NCBI GenBank assembly: GCA_025359205.1
Contig: JANYHD010000033.1
Coordinates: 1-35,877, forward strand
Direction: 5' to 3'
DNA length: 35,877 nt
Origin: Gammaproteobacteria bacterium
GTDB taxonomy: Bacteria > Pseudomonadota > Gammaproteobacteria > Steroidobacterales > Steroidobacteraceae
Positions 5,571 to 33,448 of this stretch are shown here, one piece after another. The notes below the pieces were generated by a model. It did not search any database and had not been told where the DNA came from. It saw only the letters and a list, made by a program, of their open reading frames with translations. Positions within the stretch are counted from its first letter, which is position 1. Each line of letters begins with the position of its first letter. Both the position numbers and the translations under genes were made by a program.

Positions 5571-6605
5571 TTGAGCGATCCCATTGCGACCGAAGCGGTC
5601 ATCATTGGCGCCGGTCCGGCGGGACTGTTCCAGGTATTCGAACTGGGGCTGCTGGGGATCAAGTCGCATGTGCTTGATTCGCTGGCTGCTCCCGGCGGAC
5701 AGTGCACCGAGCTCTATCCTGACAAGCCCATCTACGACATTCCGGCGCTGCCGATCTGTGGCGCGCAGGAGCTGGTGGATCGCCTGCTCCAGCAGATCAA
5801 GCCCTTCGGGGCCGGGCTGCACATGGGCGAGGAGGCCGTCAGCCTCGAGCCGCAGCAGGGCGGGCGCTTCCGCGTCGTCACCAGTGCCGGCACGGTATTC
5901 GACGCCGGCACGGTGGTGATTGCCGCGGGCGTGGGTTCGTTCCAGCCGCGGCGGCTGGGTGTCGAGGGCGCCGATGGCTTCGAAGGCCGCCAGATCCACT
6001 ACAAGGTGCGCAGCGCCGCCGAACTGCAGGGACGCAAGCTGGTCGTGTTTGGCGGCGGCGATTCCGCGCTCGACTGGGCCATCGATCTGGCGCCCAGGGC
6101 CGCATCGCTCACGCTCGTGCACCGGCGCGCGGAATTTCGCGGCGCGCCGGCCTCGGTGGCACGTATGCGCGAACTCGAAGTCGCTGGCAAGCTCAGCTTC
6201 GTCGAGGGGCTCGCGCATGCACTCCATGGCGCCGCCGGGCAGCTGACTGGCGTCGAGATCAAGCGCACCGATGGCACGCTGCAGTCGATCGAGGCCGAGC
6301 AACTGCTGGTGTTTTTCGGGCTGGCGCCGAAGCTCGGTCCGATCGCCGAGTGGGGACTCGAGCTCGACAAGCGCGCCATCAAGGTCGACACGGAGAAATT
6401 CCAGTCGAACATCCCGGGCGTGTTCGCGATCGGCGATATCAACACCTATCCTGGCAAGAAGAAGCTGATCCTGTCCGCTTTCCACGAGGCAGCGCTTGTG
6501 TCCTTCGCCGTGCAGCACCACCTCTACCCGGCCAAGAAGCAGTTCCTGCAGTACACCACGACCAGCCCGGCGATGCAGAAGCGCCTGGGCGTCGTGGCCG
6601 ACTGA
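5571..6605 (+). CDS. Ferredoxin/flavodoxin--NADP(+) reductase, thioredoxin-reductase-like type
   Basis: A 344-residue two-dinucleotide-domain flavoprotein. The FAD-binding GAGPAG is at residues 13-18, a second nucleotide motif GGGDSALDW lies in the NADPH domain, and the C-terminal FAD motif is GDINTYPGK. The CxxC redox pair of true thioredoxin reductase is absent, and the C-terminus continues with the AxxQKRLG-like end typical of the YumC-type ferredoxin--NADP reductases. Likely role: moving electrons between NADPH and ferredoxin or flavodoxin in the cytoplasm. The start is TTG at 5571, the first codon before the conserved N-terminus, with AAGG about 10 bases upstream. It is followed after 4 bp by tesB, so the two are probably co-transcribed, though no shared pathway is obvious. 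Confidence 0.88.
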   Translation: MSDPIATEAVIIGAGPAGLFQVFELGLLGIKSHVLDSLAAPGGQCTELYPDKPIYDIPALPICGAQELVDRLLQQIKPFGAGLHMGEEAVSLEPQQGGRFRVVTSAGTVFDAGTVVIAAGVGSFQPRRLGVEGADGFEGRQIHYKVRSAAELQGRKLVVFGGGDSALDWAIDLAPRAASLTLVHRRAEFRGAPASVARMRELEVAGKLSFVEGLAHALHGAAGQLTGVEIKRTDGTLQSIEAEQLLVFFGLAPKLGPIAEWGLELDKRAIKVDTEKFQSNIPGVFAIGDINTYPGKKKLILSAFHEAALVSFAVQHHLYPAKKQFLQYTTTSPAMQKRLGVVAD

Positions 6606-6609
6606 CACA

Positions 6610-7476
6610 GTGGATCAGCGGCTCGAAGGCCTGCTACGGCTCCTGGATCTCGAGCGGCTCGAGGTCAACATCTTTCGCGGTGAGAGCCGCGACATCGGCA
6701 GTCCGCAGGTCTACGGCGGCCAGGTGCTGGGCCAGGCGCTGCAGGCCGCTTATGCGACCGTCGACGCCGATCGCGTGGTGCACTCGCTCCACGCCTACTT
6801 CCTGCGACGCGGCGATTTCAACGCGCCGATCGTGTACTTCGTCGACCGCAGCCGCGACGGCCACAGTTTTACCAGCCGGCGTGTCACCGCGATCCAGCAT
6901 GGCGAGCAGATCTTCAACTGTTCAGCGTCATTCCAGGTTCCGGAAGCGGGCTTTGAACACCAGCTCGGCATGCCCGAAGTGCCGCCGCCCGAGGCCCTGC
7001 CCGAGTCGCTCCTGCCCGGGTCGGAATTCCTGGAGGGACTGTCGCCGCGCCTGCGCCAGTTCGTGCACGAGCGTCCGATCGAATTCCGAGTCGTGCCAAA
7101 CTCGGTGACTGCGACCATGGCTGGAGCGCGCCGCCAGTACCTGTGGATCCGCACCGTCGACAAGCTCCCGGACGACGATCGGTTGCACCAGTGCCTGTTG
7201 GCCTACGCCTCGGACTTCCACCTGCTGGGCACGGCGTTGGCGCGCCACCAGCACAGCATCGCGCAGGGCAAGCTCATGGTCGCCAGCATTGACCATGCGA
7301 TGTGGTTTCACCGCAAGGTGCGCATCGATGAGTGGCTGCTGTACGCTGCCGACAGCCCAAGCGCCTCGGGTGCGCGCGGCTTTACGCGCGGCAGCCTGTA
7401 CTCGCGCGCTGGCGTGCTGGTCGCGAGCACGGCGCAGGAAGGCCTGATTCGGGTATTGCCGCCTTCCAAAGCGTAG
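6610..7476 (+). CDS. tesB: Acyl-CoA thioesterase II
   Basis: A 288-residue double-hotdog thioesterase, almost exactly the length of E. coli TesB (286). It hydrolyses medium- and long-chain acyl-CoA to free fatty acid and CoA in the cytoplasm. The N-terminal hotdog includes YGGQVLGQAL and the HSLHAYFLRRGD segment. The C-terminal hotdog carries Asp202 (in YASDFHLL) and Gln276 (in STAQEGLIR), which align in position with the catalytic Asp204 and Gln278 of the E. coli enzyme; a Ser/Thr between them sits in the usual ARGFTRGSLYSR stretch. The start is GTG at 6610; upstream in-frame codons lie inside the reductase gene. It directly follows that gene. Confidence 0.93.
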   Translation: MDQRLEGLLRLLDLERLEVNIFRGESRDIGSPQVYGGQVLGQALQAAYATVDADRVVHSLHAYFLRRGDFNAPIVYFVDRSRDGHSFTSRRVTAIQHGEQIFNCSASFQVPEAGFEHQLGMPEVPPPEALPESLLPGSEFLEGLSPRLRQFVHERPIEFRVVPNSVTATMAGARRQYLWIRTVDKLPDDDRLHQCLLAYASDFHLLGTALARHQHSIAQGKLMVASIDHAMWFHRKVRIDEWLLYAADSPSASGARGFTRGSLYSRAGVLVASTAQEGLIRVLPPSKA

Positions 7477-27063: not shown

Positions 27064-28327
27064 AATCGCGGCTTTGATGCAGACCATGGGCCGCGCCGCA
27101 GTGGCGGCGGCGGCGCTACTGGCGCGCGCTGACGCGGCTACGAAGAATCGGGCGCTGCGGGCGGCCGCCACGGCAATCCGCGCCCAGCGCCCGCAGCTCA
27201 TCGAGGCCAACGCAGCCGACCTGGCCGCCGCGCGCGCGGCCGGGCTGGGCGCGGCGCTCCTCGACCGCCTGCAGCTCAATGAGCAACGCATCGAGGCAAT
27301 GGCCGCCGGTCTCGAGGACGTCGCAAAGCTGCCCGATCCGATCGGCGCCGTCGTCGCCGAGTGGACCCGGCCAAATATGCTGCACATACAACGCGTGCTA
27401 GTGCCGTTGGGAGTAGTGGGCATCATCTACGAGAGCCGCCCGAACGTTACCGCAGACGCCGGCGCGCTCTGCCTCAAGTCGGGCAATGCCTCGATCCTGC
27501 GCGGCGGCTCGGAGAGCGGCCGCTCGAACGCGGCGATCCATGCCTGCCTGCGCGCGGGACTTGCAGCCGCCGGCCTGGGTGCCGACTGCATTCAACTGGT
27601 GCCTACCGCTGACCGCGCCGCGGTCGGCGAAATGCTCGGCGGCATGCAGGACTACATCGACGTGCTGGTGCCGCGCGGCGGCAGGAGCCTGGTAGCGCGG
27701 GTGCAGGCCGAGGCGCGCGTGCCGGTCATCGGCCATCTTGAGGGCAATTGCCATGTCTATGTCGACCGCGACGCCGACGCGCAGATGGCGCTCAGCATCG
27801 TGCTCAATTCGAAGCTGCGCCGCACCGGCGTGTGCGGCGCGGCCGAGACGCTGCTGATCGATCGTGCCGCGCCGCCCGCCATGGTGCAGTCATTGGTCAG
27901 CGCGCTGCTGGAGGCCGGCTGTGAAGTGCGCGCCGACGCGGGTGTGCGTTCACTGCTCAACAATGCGCGGGTCCGCGAGGCCGTCGAACAGGACTGGTAC
28001 ACCGAATTTCTCGACGCGATCATCGCCGTGGGCCTGGTCGACGGGGTCGACGGCGCGATCGCGCACATTGCGCGCTACGGCTCGGCGCACACGGAATCGA
28101 TCGTCACGGCGAATGCCGCGACCGCCGAGCGTTTCCTGGCGCGCGTCGACAGCGCGATCGTGCTGCACAACGCCTCGACGCAATTTGCGGACGGCGGCGA
28201 GTTTGGCATGGGCGCGGAAATAGGCATATCCACGGACCGCTTCCACGCGCGCGGCCCGGTCGGCGTCGAGCAGCTCACCAGCTACAAGTACGTGGTACGC
28301 GGATCGGGCCAGGTCAGGCCGGGCTGA
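27056..28327 (+). CDS. proA: Gamma-glutamyl phosphate reductase
   Basis: A 423-residue member of the aldehyde dehydrogenase superfamily that reduces gamma-glutamyl phosphate with NADPH to glutamate semialdehyde, the second step of proline synthesis. Visible signatures are [39 protein letters not shown] and the catalytic Cys in [36 protein letters not shown] near the C-terminus is the ProA family signature. It overlaps proB by 8 bp, so the kinase and reductase are produced together, as suits their unstable shared intermediate. The 3' end overlaps the convergent apbE-like gene by 14 bp. Confidence 0.96.
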
Positions 28328-29087
28328 GCGCCCGCGCCCGATACCGCGCCAGCAGTGCAGCGGCGCGTGCCGGTGCCGCAAACATCTGCACCTTCGTGAG
28401 CGCGTCAGCCAGCGCGGCGCTCGGGGCGATGACCGTCGCCGCGCGTGGCGGCGCGCGGTGCGCAGCTTCGCCGCGCCGGTAATAGCCGCGATGTTCGCGC
28501 GGCATTGAATCGCCGCAGTCGGCGCTGGCGGCAAGCGCCAGGTCCCGCAGCGGCAGCTCCTGCAATGCTCCGGTCTGGGCCCGCACCGAAATTCGCCAGT
28601 CATTTGAACCGTAGACCCGCAGGTCGCCGCCGGCATTAACGAGCCCGGCATGGGCGCCGGTGCGCTGCAACGCCGTTATGGCCAGGTCGATGGCGTAGCC
28701 CTTCGCAATGCCTCCCAGGTCGACGACGGCGCGCCGCCGCACGTACACACTGCGCAGCCCGATGAGCTCCCAGTTCATGACCGAGCCCTGGCCGGGCAGT
28801 GCCGGTTCGAAAAGGCCATCCGAACGCGCACACAGTTCGCGACTCAGGCGCAGCACCGCCGCTGTCCACGGATGCACCCGCCTGCGCGCGCCCGGCGCCA
28901 AACGGTTCAGCAACGCCAAGTCGCTGCCGCGGCGGGTAGGGTGCAGCAGCCATTCAACATAATTAATGACCGCGAAGGCGGCATTCACTGCCCGCTCTGC
29001 TGTCTCGATACAAGGTGAGCGCGCCTCTACCGCGACCAGCGTGCCCATGGCAGGGCGCAATCTTGCTACGGCCTGTTCTTGACACAT
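28314..29087 (-). CDS. ApbE-family FAD:protein FMN transferase (divergent type)
   Basis: A 257-residue flavin transferase. ApbE proteins use FAD and Mg to attach FMN covalently to a Thr in the motif of extracytoplasmic FMN-binding proteins. Recognisable parts are [10 protein letters not shown] near the N-terminus, [26 protein letters not shown] and [10 protein letters not shown]. The HxxDPxTG loop of classical ApbE is absent; the corresponding region reads [17 protein letters not shown], so this is a shorter, divergent variant. No clear lipoprotein or Sec signal is seen, raising the question of where it acts. A predicted target, the FMN-binding protein at 30511, is encoded on the other side of the shared Fur-like box. 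Convergent 14-bp overlap with proA. Confidence 0.85.
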
Positions 29088-29098
29088 GCCTTGATCTT

Positions 29099-29117
29099 AG
29101 TAAGAATCATTCTCATT
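29099..29117. promoter_or_regulatory. Fur-box-like operator between apbE-like and porin genes
   Basis: AGTAAGAATCATTCTCATT contains a perfect inverted repeat AGAAT-C-ATTCT (29103-29113), and its reverse strand closely follows the AATGAGAATGATTCT form of Fur sites in proteobacteria. It lies 11 bp from the apbE-like ATG and 15 bp from the porin ATG in a 45-bp divergent spacer, so Fur binding could repress both directions when iron is plentiful. Confidence 0.65.
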
Positions 29118-29132
29118 CGCAATAACGTCTGA

Positions 29133-30521
29133 ATGAAACGTACGCTCATGCCCGATTTGCCGCGCAACCCCATGACTCGTCGGAACTTCGGCCTGGTGCT
29201 CAGCCTGTTGCTTGGGCTATTTCCAGCGGCTATGCCCGTCCAGGCTGCGGCCAGTGCTCCGGATCTTGAAGCGAGAGTGGCTGCACTGGAAGCCGAGCTG
29301 CAAGCGCTCAAAGCGCAACTGGCGCTGATCCAGGCCGGCGGTGCGGCGCGCTCAACTGCAACACCGGTGACTGGCGTTGCGGCTGCGTCGCCCGTGGCCG
29401 CAGCCGCGGCCGCGGCGGCGCCGCTCGCGCCCATGGTAGCGACGGCTGATGTGCCGGCGTCGCGACCGGCGCTCAGCTGGTTTGGCTACGGCGAACTCAA
29501 CTACACGCGGCCGACGGACAATCCAGCCGACGCACGCGCCGATCTCGGGCGCTTCGTCATTGGCGCAGGTTACCGCTTCGACGAACGTACGCGGCTGCAA
29601 AGCGAACTGGAAATCGAGCACGCGGTGTCATCGGCGAGCGATCCGGGCGAAGTCGAAATCGAGCAGGCCTACATTGAGCGCGAACTCAACGGCGCTGCGC
29701 GCCTGCATGCCGGGCTGTTCCTGATACCGAGCGGCTTGCTCAACGAGAATCACGAGCCGACGCGCTACTACGGCGTGTTCCGCAATATCGTCGAGACCGC
29801 AATCATTCCGAGCACCTGGCGCGAAGGTGGCGTGGGCTTCCAGGGCAACACTGCCGGCGGCCTGCGCTGGGACGCCGGGCTGACCACGGGCTTCGACCTG
29901 TCCAAATGGGACGCCACCTCTGGCAAAGGAGTCGAATCGCCGCTCGGCTCCATACATCAGGAGCTGGCGCTGGCACGTGCCGCGCAACTCTCGGTCTACA
30001 TGGCGGCGAACTACACTGGCATCGCTGGCCTGCGCCTCGGCGCGTCGATATTCAGCGGCGGCGCCTCGCAACGCCAGGCTGGCCTGGCCGGCAGTCACCT
30101 GAGCTTGTGGGAAGGGCACGTGCGCTGGCAGCCGGGCGCATGGGAGCTGTCGGCTTTGTACGCGCGCGGACACATTGCGGGCACGAGCGCATTGAACAGT
30201 GCCCTGGCCGCGCAAGTGGCCGACGCCACGCTGGTGCCCGAGGATTTCTACGGCGCCTACATCGAAGCGGCCTGGCGCGCGCGTGCGGGACGCTCGTGGC
30301 CGTTCACGCCTTTCGCGCGCGTCGAGCGCTTCAACACCGCTGCCAGTTACGCCGACCTCGGCGCCGGCCTCAGGCCACTCGCACGCGCCGACCAGACGGC
30401 CTATACCGCCGGAGTGCAGCTGGAGTTTGCACCCGGCGTGATCTTCAAGACAGACTACGTGGATCTTTCTGGCGGAAGCTCCGCCGACCGCTTCGATCTG
30501 GGTCTGGGCTATGAATTCTGA
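29133..30521 (+). CDS. Outer-membrane porin-like protein with N-terminal coiled coil
   Basis: A 462-residue protein with a signal peptide (cleavage probably after PVQAAA, near residue 40) and a short coiled coil (LEARVAALEAELQALKAQLALI, about 45-66). An Ala-rich linker follows, then a beta-barrel-like part from about 115 to the end with alternating hydrophobic strands and a terminal Phe (GLGYEF), the usual outer-membrane insertion signal. It resembles phosphate-selective porins O/P and similar porins found beside redox or metal genes; the substrate is unknown. The first ATG at 29133 has no clear ribosome site, and ATG 29172 (MTRRNFG) would give a more typical signal peptide. It overlaps the FMN-binding gene by 11 bp. 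Confidence 0.8.
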   Translation: MKRTLMPDLPRNPMTRRNFGLVLSLLLGLFPAAMPVQAAASAPDLEARVAALEAELQALKAQLALIQAGGAARSTATPVTGVAAASPVAAAAAAAAPLAPMVATADVPASRPALSWFGYGELNYTRPTDNPADARADLGRFVIGAGYRFDERTRLQSELEIEHAVSSASDPGEVEIEQAYIERELNGAARLHAGLFLIPSGLLNENHEPTRYYGVFRNIVETAIIPSTWREGGVGFQGNTAGGLRWDAGLTTGFDLSKWDATSGKGVESPLGSIHQELALARAAQLSVYMAANYTGIAGLRLGASIFSGGASQRQAGLAGSHLSLWEGHVRWQPGAWELSALYARGHIAGTSALNSALAAQVADATLVPEDFYGAYIEAAWRARAGRSWPFTPFARVERFNTAASYADLGAGLRPLARADQTAYTAGVQLEFAPGVIFKTDYVDLSGGSSADRFDLGLGYEF

Positions 30522-31083
30522 AGCGCGTCCCTGGCGGCTCATGGGTGGTTGTGCGCTGGCGCTGCTCGCGCCCGCGCCCGCGCTCATAGCCGCTGACTAC
30601 CTTTCGCTGGCCGACGCGCAGCGGGCAATCTTCCCGGAAGCTCTGAGATTCGAGCCGGTGATGCTGCAGCTGACCGGCGCGCAGCGCCAGGCCATTGCCG
30701 CGCTCGCTGGCGTGCAGCCACTGCGCGGACGTCTCGCCGCGTGGCGCGTGCAGGGCAGCGCGGGCGAGCTGGGATTCTTCTTCAGCGACGAAGTGGTCGG
30801 CCGGCAGGATTTCATCGACTACGCTCTCGGCATCAACCAGGATGGCACGCTGCGCGCGCCGGAGATCATGAGTTACCGCGAGAGCCACGGCGGCGAGATC
30901 CGCAATTCCGCCTGGCGCGCGCAGTTTGCCCGCCGGAGCAACGGCGCGGCGCTCCGTCCGACCATAGACATCCGCAACATTGCCGGCGCCACGCTCTCGT
31001 GCGAGCACCTGACCGCGGGCGTGCGTTACCTGTCCGCACTGTGGCAGGTGTTGCTGCGCGACGGCGCGGGAGCAGCCAGATGA
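30511..31083 (+). CDS. Periplasmic FMN-binding domain protein (flavinylation substrate)
   Basis: A 190-residue exported protein with a signal peptide (about 1-27). The C-terminal part matches the FMN-binding domain of NqrC/RnfG-like proteins: GINQDGTLRAPEIMSYRESHGGEI, then the attachment motif DIRNIAGATLS with Asp153 and acceptor Thr161, followed by a short helix. The Thr would carry FMN linked by phosphoester, installed by an ApbE enzyme such as the one at 28314. The first half (about 30-100), with ADAQRAIFPEALRFEP, is typical of small FMN-binding proteins outside Nqr/Rnf complexes. It overlaps both the porin gene and the following membrane gene (ATGA). Probable role: moving electrons in the periplasm. 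Confidence 0.85.
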   Translation: MNSEARPWRLMGGCALALLAPAPALIAADYLSLADAQRAIFPEALRFEPVMLQLTGAQRQAIAALAGVQPLRGRLAAWRVQGSAGELGFFFSDEVVGRQDFIDYALGINQDGTLRAPEIMSYRESHGGEIRNSAWRAQFARRSNGAALRPTIDIRNIAGATLSCEHLTAGVRYLSALWQVLLRDGAGAAR

Positions 31084-31649
31084 TCGGCCGCGTCGGCCGG
31101 CTGTCCGCCGAATTCGCTGGTGAATACGGCGCCCGCCTGTCACGCCGTATCAGCGCAGCGCTGCTGGCGACACTGGCGGCGCTGTGGCTGACGGGGGCCG
31201 CCTGGCTATTGCTGCACTACATCCTGGCGAAGCCAGATGAGTTTGGCGTCATCCGCCATCCGCTCGAGTCGCCGACGGTGTTGGCGCACGGCGTCCTGGC
31301 ATTGGCGGCGCTGTTTCTGCTGGGCTGGTTCGCCGGCCGCCACGCCGGCGCGGCGAGCAGCGGGCGCCGCGTCGCGAGCGGCTGGCTGCTGACGCTCCCG
31401 CTCGCGGTGCTGGTGGTGGCCGGCTGTGCGCAGTTGTTCGTGACGAGCGCGCCGTTGCAGTCAGCGCTCGCCGCCGTGCACTGGGTGCTTGGATTGGCGT
31501 TGCTGCTGCCGCTGCTGGTGCACGCGCGCCGTGCTAGCGCGGCTTCCCGTGAAGGTGCTGCGCACCATGGGGAGCGTGGCCCTGGGCCGCTGCCGTTTCG
31601 CCATGGTGCTCGCCGTGGAGCGGGGCGGCGGCACAACGTTCGCAGTTGA
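31080..31649 (+). CDS. Four-helix membrane protein with b-type-cytochrome-like histidines
   Basis: A 189-residue inner-membrane protein with helices near residues 24-49, 66-85, 101-121 and 129-148. Four histidines lie in or at the ends of helices: His46, His70, His134 and His148, the last two separated by 13 residues, a spacing used to hold stacked hemes in b-type cytochromes. DUF4405-like cytochrome b folds are the closest idea, not a confirmed match. It starts in an ATGA overlap with the FMN-binding gene, so it would be made with it and could pass quinol electrons to the bound FMN. The last 116 bp run antisense to moaE, and the tail after residue 152 is low-complexity. Confidence 0.75.
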   Translation: MIGRVGRLSAEFAGEYGARLSRRISAALLATLAALWLTGAAWLLLHYILAKPDEFGVIRHPLESPTVLAHGVLALAALFLLGWFAGRHAGAASSGRRVASGWLLTLPLAVLVVAGCAQLFVTSAPLQSALAAVHWVLGLALLLPLLVHARRASAASREGAAHHGERGPGPLPFRHGARRGAGRRHNVRS

Positions 31650-32052
31650 CCCAGCCGGAATCGCCGTTCGCGTAGTGCTCTTTCTTCCAGATCGGCAGCC
31701 GATGCTTTACTTCATCGATGATGTAGCGGCAGCCACGGAAAGCCTCGTCGCGGTGCGGCGCCGCAACACCGACCCACACTGCGATCTCGCCAAGTTCGAG
31801 CGCTCCGACCCGGTGCACGCACAGTGCGCCGCGCAGGCCGAAGTGCGCGCGCGCCTCGGCGATGATGCGCTCGCCCTCGCGCAGCGCCAGGGGCGCGAAC
31901 GCCTCGTATTCGAGCCGCGTGACGCGCTGGCCTTCATTGTGATCGCGCACCCAGCCCTCGAAGGCGGCATAGCCGCCACAGGTGGGATCGGCGAGCTCGG
32001 CGCGTAGCGACGCGACATCGAACGCGGCGCCGCTGAGGCGAAAGGCGCTCAT
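31534..32052 (-). CDS. moaE: Molybdopterin synthase catalytic subunit MoaE with His-rich tail
   Basis: A 172-residue protein; the usual length is about 150. MoaE adds dithiolene sulfur, carried on the MoaD C-terminus, to cyclic pyranopterin monophosphate, giving molybdopterin. Conserved parts are YAAFEGWVRDHNEG, LEYEAFAPLA, the VHRVGALELGE segment, VGVAAPHRDEAF and the active-site region VKHRLPIWKKEHY. A C-terminal extension of about 30 residues is rich in His and Gly (HGEHHGE and HGAQHLHGK) and overlaps the opposite-strand membrane gene by 116 bp. It overlaps the mobA-moaD fusion gene by 4 bp. Confidence 0.95.
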   Translation of the reverse strand: MSAFRLSGAAFDVASLRAELADPTCGGYAAFEGWVRDHNEGQRVTRLEYEAFAPLALREGERIIAEARAHFGLRGALCVHRVGALELGEIAVWVGVAAPHRDEAFRGCRYIIDEVKHRLPIWKKEHYANGDSGWVNCERCAAAPLHGEHHGETAAAQGHAPHGAQHLHGKPR

Positions 32053-32921
32053 CCGCCAGCCACTGGCGGCAGGAATACGACGCTGTCACCTTCGCGGAGC
32101 AGCTGCGACCAGTCGGCGAATTCCTCGTTGACGGCGACGCGCAGCTGCTCAGGTTCCAGCAGCAGGCCATGGCGCACGCGCAGTTCCTCATACAGCGCGC
32201 GCGCATCGCGTGCCCGGCTGGACACCGTCTCGCTGTTCCGCCCAGCCTGCTCGCGCAGCAGCGCGAAATATTGGATCTGCAGCGTGTGCGACTCGGCGGG
32301 CGCAGCCGCGCCGCCGCCCGGGAGGCCGTGCGCACCCTCGCCGAGGTGGCCGCGGGCGACGCGGTATTCGTCGCTGGTGTTGATGTTGTCGAGCGCTTGT
32401 GGAGTACGGAGCGTCAGCAGCGCGACATCCGCGGCGGCCAGGAAGCCGCGCGGGCATAGCTGTCCGCTCGCGATCCACACATCAATCGGCCCGCGGCTGG
32501 CCGGCTCGTAGATCGCGCACAGCGGCTCGGGTTTGCCGTCATGGCTGCTGCGGAAGGCGGTCGCGAGCCGCTGCGCATCGCGTGCCGCGATCAACTGCTG
32601 CAGCGTCGCGGCGTCGAGAAATGGCAGATCGCAGGCGAGTACCAACCAGGCGGCCTCGGGGTAGGCATGGAGTGCCGCATGGATGCCGGCGATGGGCCCG
32701 AGCTCCGGCAGGACATCAGCGATGCAAGCATGTGCGGCGCGCTGCGGCTCGCCGAGCTGATCCGCTCGCACTGACACGAAGGCGCGTGCGACCAAGGGCT
32801 CGAGCAGCGCCAGCGCGCGCGCCAACTGCGTCCGGCCTGCGTATTCCAGGTTGGCCTTGTCGCGCTGCATGCGCCGGCTCCTGCCGCCGGTCAGCAGCAA
32901 GCCGTGGAGCGGTGCGCTCAT
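32049..32921 (-). CDS. Fused MobA (molybdenum cofactor guanylyltransferase) - MoaD (sulfur carrier)
   Basis: A 290-residue fusion. Residues 1 to about 190 are MobA, which adds GMP to Mo-molybdopterin: the nucleotide loop LLLTGGRSRRMQRDKANL, the metal-site LACDLPFLD, GKPEPLCAIYEP, and NINTSDEY at the domain end. A Gly/Ala/Pro linker (about 198-212) leads to a complete MoaD domain (about 213-290), which starts QIQYFALLREQAGRN and ends in Gly-Gly at the very C-terminus, as needed for thiocarboxylate formation. No start codon in a suitable context separates the two domains, so one polypeptide is expected. I chose the ATG at 32921, which overlaps the moaC stop by 4 bp; a longer open frame upstream lies within moaC. 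It overlaps moaE in the same way. Confidence 0.9.
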   Translation of the reverse strand: MSAPLHGLLLTGGRSRRMQRDKANLEYAGRTQLARALALLEPLVARAFVSVRADQLGEPQRAAHACIADVLPELGPIAGIHAALHAYPEAAWLVLACDLPFLDAATLQQLIAARDAQRLATAFRSSHDGKPEPLCAIYEPASRGPIDVWIASGQLCPRGFLAAADVALLTLRTPQALDNINTSDEYRVARGHLGEGAHGLPGGGAAAPAESHTLQIQYFALLREQAGRNSETVSSRARDARALYEELRVRHGLLLEPEQLRVAVNEEFADWSQLLREGDSVVFLPPVAGG

Positions 32922-33448
32922 CGCGACCGGCCCGCCGCACGGCGGCGACCCACCACGCGCCGGCCCACGCTGCGCCGGCCACCCGACTTGAGCAGCAGCC
33001 GGACATCCGCGATGCGGATCTCGTGTGACAGCGCCTTGCACATATCGTAGATCGTGAGCGCGGCGACACAGGCGCCGGTCAGGGCCTCCATTTCGACGCC
33101 GGTCTTGTGATGCGTCTCGACGCGGCAGCGGATCCGCAGCTGGTTGCGCGACCCGGCGGCGATGTCGATGCTGCAATGCTCAATGGGCAGCGGGTGGCAG
33201 AAGGGAATGAACTCGGCCGTGCGCTTGACGGCCATGACTCCGGCAATGATCGCGGTGTCGAACACCGGGCCCTTGGCGGTGCGATGACCCGTCGCACGCA
33301 GCGCGCGCGCCACTTCAGCAGGCAGCACCATGCGTGCCTCAGCCTCGGCGACGCGATGCGTGACCGGCTTGGCACCGACCGCGACCATGGTGGGGCGGCG
33401 CGCTGCATCGAGATGGCTGAGCCCGGCATTGCCGCGTCGTTTGGCCAT
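32918..33448 (-). CDS. moaC: Cyclic pyranopterin monophosphate synthase MoaC
   Basis: A 176-residue protein. MoaC turns the MoaA product into cyclic pyranopterin monophosphate. Typical segments: LSHLDAARRPTMVAVGAKPVT, KGPVFDTAIIAGVMAVKRT, the active-site stretch FIPFCHPLPIEH, and THHKTGVEMEALTGACVAALTIYDMCKAL with the catalytic Asp and Lys in YDMCK. After the conserved KSGG the protein ends in an Arg-rich tail of about 20 residues that is not conserved in the family. It is 14 bp from moaA and overlaps the mobA-moaD gene by 4 bp. Confidence 0.95.
   Translation of the reverse strand: MAKRRGNAGLSHLDAARRPTMVAVGAKPVTHRVAEAEARMVLPAEVARALRATGHRTAKGPVFDTAIIAGVMAVKRTAEFIPFCHPLPIEHCSIDIAAGSRNQLRIRCRVETHHKTGVEMEALTGACVAALTIYDMCKALSHEIRIADVRLLLKSGGRRSVGRRVVGRRRAAGRSR

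Follow-up and report, generated by a model that had tools for sequence, protein, structure and literature searches.

A candidate Fur-controlled flavinylation module linked to feoAB in a member of the Steroidobacteraceae

Introduction

Published work already covers electron transfer by flavinylated extracytosolic proteins that have a haem-type membrane partner and ties to iron (PMC8238504, PMC11334425), and one of these papers describes clusters of PepSY, DUF2271 and ApbE genes that are repressed by Fur and associated with iron transporters (PMC8238504). The present analysis concerns a four-gene module on a 35,877-nt stretch of contig JANYHD010000033.1 (GCA_025359205.1; Steroidobacteraceae; host genome 2.98 Mb), the whole of which is called the window below. 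In this module an apbE gene is transcribed divergently from a rightward, overlapping trio of genes for a barrel protein, a flavin mononucleotide (FMN)-binding protein of the FMN_bind type and a membrane protein, with a Fur-like box in between.

The source of periplasmic Fe(II) for FeoB is, to our knowledge, not known in many Gram-negative bacteria. A concrete candidate for such a source is a module that has a Fur-like box in common with feoAB and, in some lineages, adjoins feoB. We favour, with moderate confidence, a Fur-repressed flavin electron line that would reduce periplasmic ferric iron so that FeoAB can import Fe(II). The sequence-level basis comprises the gene set, the boxes at the module and at feoAB, the conserved His and Thr residues, an ApbE without a leader and the charge topology of the membrane protein.

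The locus and its promoter

The features of the module, in window coordinates, are as follows.

28314-29087, minus strand: P0001, ApbE-type FAD (flavin adenine dinucleotide):protein FMN transferase; 257 amino acids; PF02424, 1.2e-32
29079-29107, plus strand: promoter-like hexamers; consensus scan, 10/12 matches; the -10 element overlaps the Fur-like box
29101-29115 (19-bp version 29099-29117), strand not applicable: Fur-box-like palindrome TAAGAATCATTCTCA; 1 mismatch to TGAGAATNATTCTCA
29133-30521, plus strand: P0002, barrel or porin-like protein; 462 amino acids; sub-threshold PF13505, weak Porin_O_P
30511-31083, plus strand: P0003, exported FMN_bind protein; 190 amino acids; PF04205, 22.4 bits (cut-off 22)
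31080-31649, plus strand: P0004, four-helix membrane protein; 189 amino acids; alignment, charge pattern and AlphaFold2 model

The genes of the trio overlap by 11 bp (barrel and FMN_bind) and 4 bp (FMN_bind and membrane gene); an earlier note on this DNA had the open reading frame (ORF) coordinates and both overlaps right. The Fur-like palindrome to which it had drawn attention was confirmed, 29101-29115 being the top match to TGAGAATNATTCTCA in the window and the sole site with at most one mismatch in the 2.98-Mb genome. This 7-1-7 consensus was picked after the site had been inspected. The consensus GATAATGATAATCATTATC, allowed up to three mismatches, had no match in the window, and TGAGAATNATTCTCA was used in its place. 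The promoter-like site was the only one found in 28950-29250 (0.1 expected in shuffles), and PF01475 (Fur) had two matches in the host genome, the best at 156 bits. The box at its promoter, together with the presence of Fur in the host, predicts Fur regulation of the module.

Conservation of the gene set and of the Fur-like box

Conservation of both the four genes and the Fur site, which the earlier note had put forward as a check, was found across a range of bacteria. A search of named species genomes gave 414 relatives of the FMN_bind protein, and the best 80 loci (handles L; genomes have handles G) were examined; among them L028-L032 duplicate the contigs of L012-L016. Where a contig ends close by, gene counts are minimum values, and each ORF in the loci was taken to begin at the earliest start codon following a stop, frequently too far upstream. 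Cultured relatives with the set include Undibacterium curvum (L075), Limnobacter litoralis (L074), Cellvibrio sp. OA-2007 (L103) and Duganella sp. Root1480D1 (L107). By record title the loci belong to Gammaproteobacteria, Burkholderiales and other Betaproteobacteria, Verrucomicrobia, Bdellovibrio, Omnitrophota, Sphingomonas and others. ApbE was present in 78 of the 80, the membrane gene in 76, the barrel in 62 and all four in 57, and FMN_bind, apbE and the membrane gene stood together in 75; the four loci without the membrane gene are short or end-cut pieces. A box with at most three mismatches was present in 39/79 loci versus 1.0 expected in dinucleotide shuffles, a scan from which L063 was left out as too short. 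A first count with mononucleotide shuffles and other locus boundaries had given 39/80 versus 0.55 expected at the same threshold. In the nearest clade, 25 of 26 loci had such a box; for the remaining one (L031) the first count gave a site with two mismatches.

Since the 80 loci had been picked by FMN_bind, a class sample of 369 genomes was searched with both profiles. FMN_bind was matched strongly (E<1e-50) in eight genomes, the host among them, and in all eight a membrane-gene match shared its contig and strand; the two genes overlap in the host and lie 844-904 bp apart in the other seven, which leaves room for an apbE. In the 40 genomes where FMN_bind was matched only more weakly, the proteins concerned are probably RnfG and similar ones. 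G178 and G240 had a membrane-gene match and no FMN_bind match at E<=1e-10, and G144 had a second, better membrane-gene match elsewhere in its genome.

Among 60 relatives the distribution was patchy, with FMN_bind matches in 10 (host included) and in 3/40 genera. The order of a leftward apbE followed by rightward barrel, FMN_bind and membrane genes was kept in five of the nine other relatives, and all five had a Fur box with one or two mismatches at the same place. The order in G004 is barrel, FMN_bind, ApbE, membrane gene. G007 has a smaller barrel, FMN_bind, ApbE and a sequence-distant membrane gene found by profile, its best box having four mismatches, and in G010 ApbE overlaps the membrane gene while FMN_bind lies nearby on the opposite strand.

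Other variants of the locus were also seen. A gene for a MASE1 histidine kinase (Pfam call on L042) stands between the divergent apbE and FMN_bind in L042 (3756-5903) and L043 (3788-5878) and hints at extra control. L078 is an expanded version, in which two long barrels come after tandem FMN_bind genes (5986-6537 and 6601-7152). In the Verrucomicrobia loci L056 (6455-7365) and L063 (1016-1937) the apbE match is divided between two ORFs, which may reflect a broken gene or an assembly error.

Link to feoAB

Just two sites with at most two mismatches to TGAGAATNATTCTCA were found genome-wide, one at the module and one (two mismatches) at the start of a feoA-like ORF that is followed by feoB with a 4-bp overlap. 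Six relatives (G001, G002, G007, G013, G014 and G016) had 3-7 such sites per genome versus 0-1 with the reversed pattern. One of these sites was just upstream of feoAB in 6/6 and one was at the module in 5/6, G007 being the exception; counted with the host, a box was present at feoAB in 7/7 and at both places in 6/7. Physical linkage was also seen. On the strand of the module, feoB follows it at a distance of 20-362 bp in L062, L084, L088, L096 and L097 (5/80 loci, from at least two lineages); in L042, L048 and L052 the distance downstream is about 2.2-2.5 kb, and these loci bring the total to 8/80. In L020 (G053; weak FMN_bind match, 3e-4) a PepSY_TM protein (PF03929, 3.2e-10) follows the barrel and FMN_bind, and this module stands behind a 1-mismatch Fur box. 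VciB, a PepSY protein, is reported to reduce iron (PMC8238504). The module is read as an iron reductase because of the recurrent boxes at feoAB and at both places, the adjacency of feoB, the PepSY swap in L020 and the published Fur-controlled flavinylation clusters.

Membrane protein P0004

P0004 had no Pfam family at E<=1, and NCBIfam gave nothing beyond a chance E of 0.23. The 77 matches of its family were reduced to 64 unlike sequences, and L048 and L056 were omitted from a 63-row alignment (A3). In this alignment H70, H88, H134 and H148 are invariant in 63/63 (P0004 and 62 relatives), as are G39 and G101; among all 64 unlike sequences these His occur in 64, 64, 63 and 63, both misses being gaps. 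The description of P0004 as b-cytochrome-like in the earlier note is upheld by these four His and by four helices. Of the His set that it had named (46, 70, 134 and 148), the last three stand and H46 was ruled out as a haem ligand, column 46 being His in just 39/63; H88 is invariant instead. H70 and H88 are on transmembrane helix (TM) 2, and H134 and H148 are on TM4 (His-x13-His).

Net charges over the 63 sequences were +3.9 for loop 2-3 and +2.9 for the C-terminal stretch, and -1.2 and -0.8 for the other loops. From this positive loop 2-3 and C-terminal end and the negative other loops, both the N and C ends should be inside, and H70 and H134 should lie near the periplasm and H88 and H148 near the cytoplasm. 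The basic C-terminal tail of P0004 is found only in its closest relatives. A first AlphaFold2 model (8 sequences) had a predicted local distance difference test (pLDDT) score of 71.4, and Foldseek gave nothing for it at E<=0.001. The better model (pLDDT 84.2; predicted template modelling score, pTM, 0.71) has four long membrane helices, with block means of 88-97 over residues 21-80 and 101-150 and of 86 and 73 over 81-100.

Only FdnI (0.75) and cytochrome b6 (5.8) were matched among PDB sequences at E<=10, both aligned on His-x13-His and non-significant. At E<=0.05, 31 of the 63 members weakly matched DUF4405 (best 3.3e-5) and 32 matched PF01292 (cytochrome b561); matches this weak are prone to noise in membrane proteins of the kind, since 17/63 also match an acyltransferase model. 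PepSY, MsrQ, NapH, DsbD and Nqr/Rnf-like partner domains were absent from the 25 families listed for the 63 members at this threshold. The curated cut-off of DUF4405 (PF14358) was passed in 0/20 module-bearing genomes, and nine of these had a match at E<=0.001 that may not be the module gene. Membership of DUF4405 was ruled out at the curated cut-off and a distant kinship retained. We strongly infer from the sequence pattern that P0004 is a b-type cytochrome; its invariant His would suit a stacked pair of haems held by helices 2 and 4.

The P0004 gene overlaps tail to tail, by 116 bp (31534-31649), a MoaE-like gene on the minus strand (31534-32052, named by eye). Beyond it, at 32049-33176 on the minus strand, an ORF resembles by eye a MobA-type protein with a MoaD-type C-terminus, possibly a fusion.

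The FMN_bind protein and the site of flavinylation

P0003 is the sole PF04205 match in the host genome, and it has a hydrophobic leader, seen by eye and in a hydropathy test. Its predicted flavin site is Thr161, in D153-IRNIAGAT161, the residue correctly picked out in the earlier note; the family profile matched RnfG structures, best 9eri_G (4.6e-9), and the flavin motifs fall in register in the alignment. The motif of the module is D-[IV]-x-x-[IL]-[SA]-G-A-T. It was counted over 90 matches, which include five genomes twice; two were off-pattern (GATY, GATM) and 88 were counted. The flavin position is Thr in 87/88 and Ser in 1/88, the motif Asp is at -8 in 74/88 and at -6 in 1/88, and Ala is at -3 in P0003 and in 25/88. 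P0003 does not conform to the standard motif D-x-x-[S/T]-G-A-[S/T], although G-A-T is present. An Asp-to-Ala change in the flavinylation motif had only a minor effect according to a review.

P0001 matched PF02424 at 114 bits (cut-off 25.6). It has no signal peptide, and an in-frame TAA stands four codons before its ATG. In a simple hydropathy test (10-residue N-terminal mean hydropathy >=1.8), a hydrophobic leader was found in 0/75 module ApbEs, the highest value being 1.72 (L037); 75/80 loci had an ApbE ORF long enough, and the same test was positive for 73/80 FMN_bind partners. Several module ApbEs begin MLKRMRPLLGT or similar, straight at the enzyme core. Most known ApbEs are secreted. The earlier note had tacitly assumed that ApbE acts in the periplasm, an assumption at odds with the missing leader in P0001 and in 75/75 loci; flavinylation would probably take place before export, because the module ApbE is without a signal peptide. 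ApbE accepts a 7-residue peptide motif, and modification before export would therefore be chemically possible.

The host genome encodes a second ApbE (G000:C38; L127:3256-4599), which opens with a signal-peptide-like stretch and could modify P0003; this weighs against flavinylation by the module's own enzyme. We regard it as possible, though the less probable course, that the flavin electron line stands but the exported ApbE modifies P0003, the leaderless ApbE serving a different target, in the cytoplasm. Such a division of labour concerns one step and is compatible with any other reading of the module. It is favoured by the absence of leaders from the module ApbEs, by the exported-looking enzyme itself and by a precedent in Klebsiella, where an ApbE of the cytoplasm acts on a target in the same compartment (PMC12052999); against it, apbE shares a locus with the FMN_bind gene in 78/80, and the only PF04205 protein of the host is P0003.

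The barrel protein

P0002 matched PF13505 at 1.2e-5 (26 bits, under the cut-off of 28.7) and Porin_O_P weakly. By eye it has a coiled-coil-like stretch near the N-terminus and a barrel end with a C-terminal Phe, and an alignment of 17 sequences, P0002 included, has 47 invariant columns. The barrel is not fixed: two kinds occur among the loci, and none was found in 18/80. The barrel profile was iterated from a seed with both kinds, so that barrel counts mix two families. Entry of a ferric chelate through this porin, as proposed in the earlier note, is the weakest step, since the barrel varies or was not found. The idea of a genome without TonB receptors, forced to rely on the porin, was ruled out by 28 matches to the TonB Plug domain.

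Many loci have a shorter protein in the barrel slot, and the two that were scanned are DUF6662 (PF20367; L064:5011-5910, 340.7 bits; L053:5017-5946, 65.4 bits). No paper on DUF6662 was found in the open-licence literature. From its place in the module, DUF6662 may be an outer-membrane component of a system that handles iron or electrons.

Proposed mechanism and alternatives

From these observations we infer Fur binding, haem, the electron donor, the flavin, the direction of flow, the iron acceptor and the site of flavinylation, as follows. An inner-membrane donor, probably quinol, would pass electrons to P0004, which would carry two b haems, H88-H148 on the cytoplasmic side and H70-H134 on the periplasmic side. 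The haems would reduce FMN held covalently on Thr161 of exported P0003, the FMN-Thr bond having been formed by the module's own ApbE, probably before export. P0003 would then reduce Fe(III), or a small ferric chelate that had arrived through the outer-membrane barrel (here P0002), and FeoB would import the Fe(II). In iron-replete cells, Fe-Fur on the -10 element would silence the module, and likewise feoAB. The iron link of the earlier note is thus kept, now by way of feoAB, and its haem ligands, tacitly periplasmic ApbE and porin route are altered or unsupported. If the scheme is true, the module could be one missing partner of the common importer FeoB, and a small four-helix class would join the membrane partners of flavinylation. 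Where and when the exported protein receives its covalent flavin is a testable question raised by the module. The full combination, a dedicated ferric reductase for FeoAB with a cytochrome class for which no published flavinylation link was found and with FMN attached in the cytoplasm before export by a leaderless ApbE, is rather unlikely when all its parts are taken together. It would run counter to the prevailing view, in which exported proteins receive their flavin in the periplasm.

Several results weigh against iron reduction for FeoAB. No box with at most three mismatches was found in 40/79 loci within the stretch scanned, among them 6/7 scanned in one Verrucomicrobia group (L053, L055-L060). 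The reversed-pattern control also yielded one place with at most two mismatches in the host genome, and none or one in each of the six relatives; a lone 2-mismatch site is therefore not beyond chance, and the evidential weight of such sites is in their recurrence at feoAB. No feoB was seen near the module in 72/80 loci, many loci being truncated, and feoB was present in 30/50 related genomes without the module, which is therefore not required by Feo. The excess of feoB in module genomes is weak (9/10 by hidden Markov model, Fisher p 0.067; 10/10 if a tblastn fragment in G014 is counted, p 0.011; both uncorrected for kinship). The Plug matches in the host genome make other iron routes possible. 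Finally, the better P0004 model had no Foldseek match in the PDB at E<=0.001, the first rank being a focal-adhesion four-helix bundle, with HyaC (4gd3_A) also matched (prob 0.91, TMq 0.47, E 0.35); without a significant match, the fold comparison neither proves nor excludes a cytochrome.

A same-strand CCP_MauG-like gene precedes the module in 14/80 loci and in L018, as judged by similarity to four such genes, two of which were tested and called by Pfam (L069, 2.9e-35; L018, 2e-33). These loci, in which the gene lies upstream of the barrel (L069:3341-4588, L071, L074, L075, L076, L080, L089, L102 and others), are mostly Betaproteobacteria by title. The linkage suggests that the partner may be a different one, and the electron line might feed a periplasmic di-haem peroxidase or another non-iron acceptor, Fur control being explained by oxidative stress under iron starvation. 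We consider this unlikely: neither the close clade of the window nor the other 66/80 loci, many loci being truncated, showed such a gene next to the module, a haem-rich enzyme would be an odd choice at low iron, and the recurrent second Fur-like site in the seven close genomes, where not every site was identified, is at feoAB and not at a peroxidase.

The flavoprotein might otherwise stand in at low iron for iron-rich periplasmic cytochromes, serving respiration or the upkeep of the envelope and taking no part in iron uptake. Interchange of flavinylated proteins and cytochromes is described (PMC8238504), and Fur control would fit; the membrane partner P0004 is itself a predicted haem protein, however, and the repeated physical and regulatory tie to feoAB speaks against a mere substitute, which we hold to be the least probable of these explanations. 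Iron reduction in the service of FeoAB is the reading that we retain.

Comparison with known systems

No description of this gene set, of the sub-cut-off DUF4405 membrane family, of the leaderless ApbE or of the Fur/Feo link was found in the open-licence literature, searched mainly by titles and abstract starts and apart from supplementary tables. Closest are the PepSY-like/FoxB systems (with DUF2271 and ApbE; Caulobacter CC_3060-3063), which share with the module Fur control, ApbE, an exported substrate, a haem-binding membrane protein and a proposed reduction of iron (PMC8238504, PMC11334425, PMC3751524). The substrate here is FMN_bind and not DUF2271, and no PepSY model was matched by P0004; a signal peptide is reported for the ApbE tested from A. 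ursilacus, whereas P0001 has none.

The DUF4405 cytochromes and FezC are likewise small membrane proteins with four conserved His encoded near apbE, and they have weak sequence kinship with the P0004 family (PMC11334425). The P0004 family has four helices and theirs have six, and the published DUF4405 clusters often have a Flavodoxin_4 substrate (same source), where the module has FMN_bind, mostly a barrel and often a Fur-like box. RnfG and NqrC share the FMN_bind domain with P0003, but P0003 consists of one domain behind a leader, has its motif Asp at -8 and belongs to a set without an Rnf or Nqr partner. Cytochrome b561 and the cytochromes b of hydrogenase and formate dehydrogenase have the TM4 His-x13-His in common with P0004, to which their PDB matches are non-significant; the other two His of P0004, in contrast, are both on TM2.

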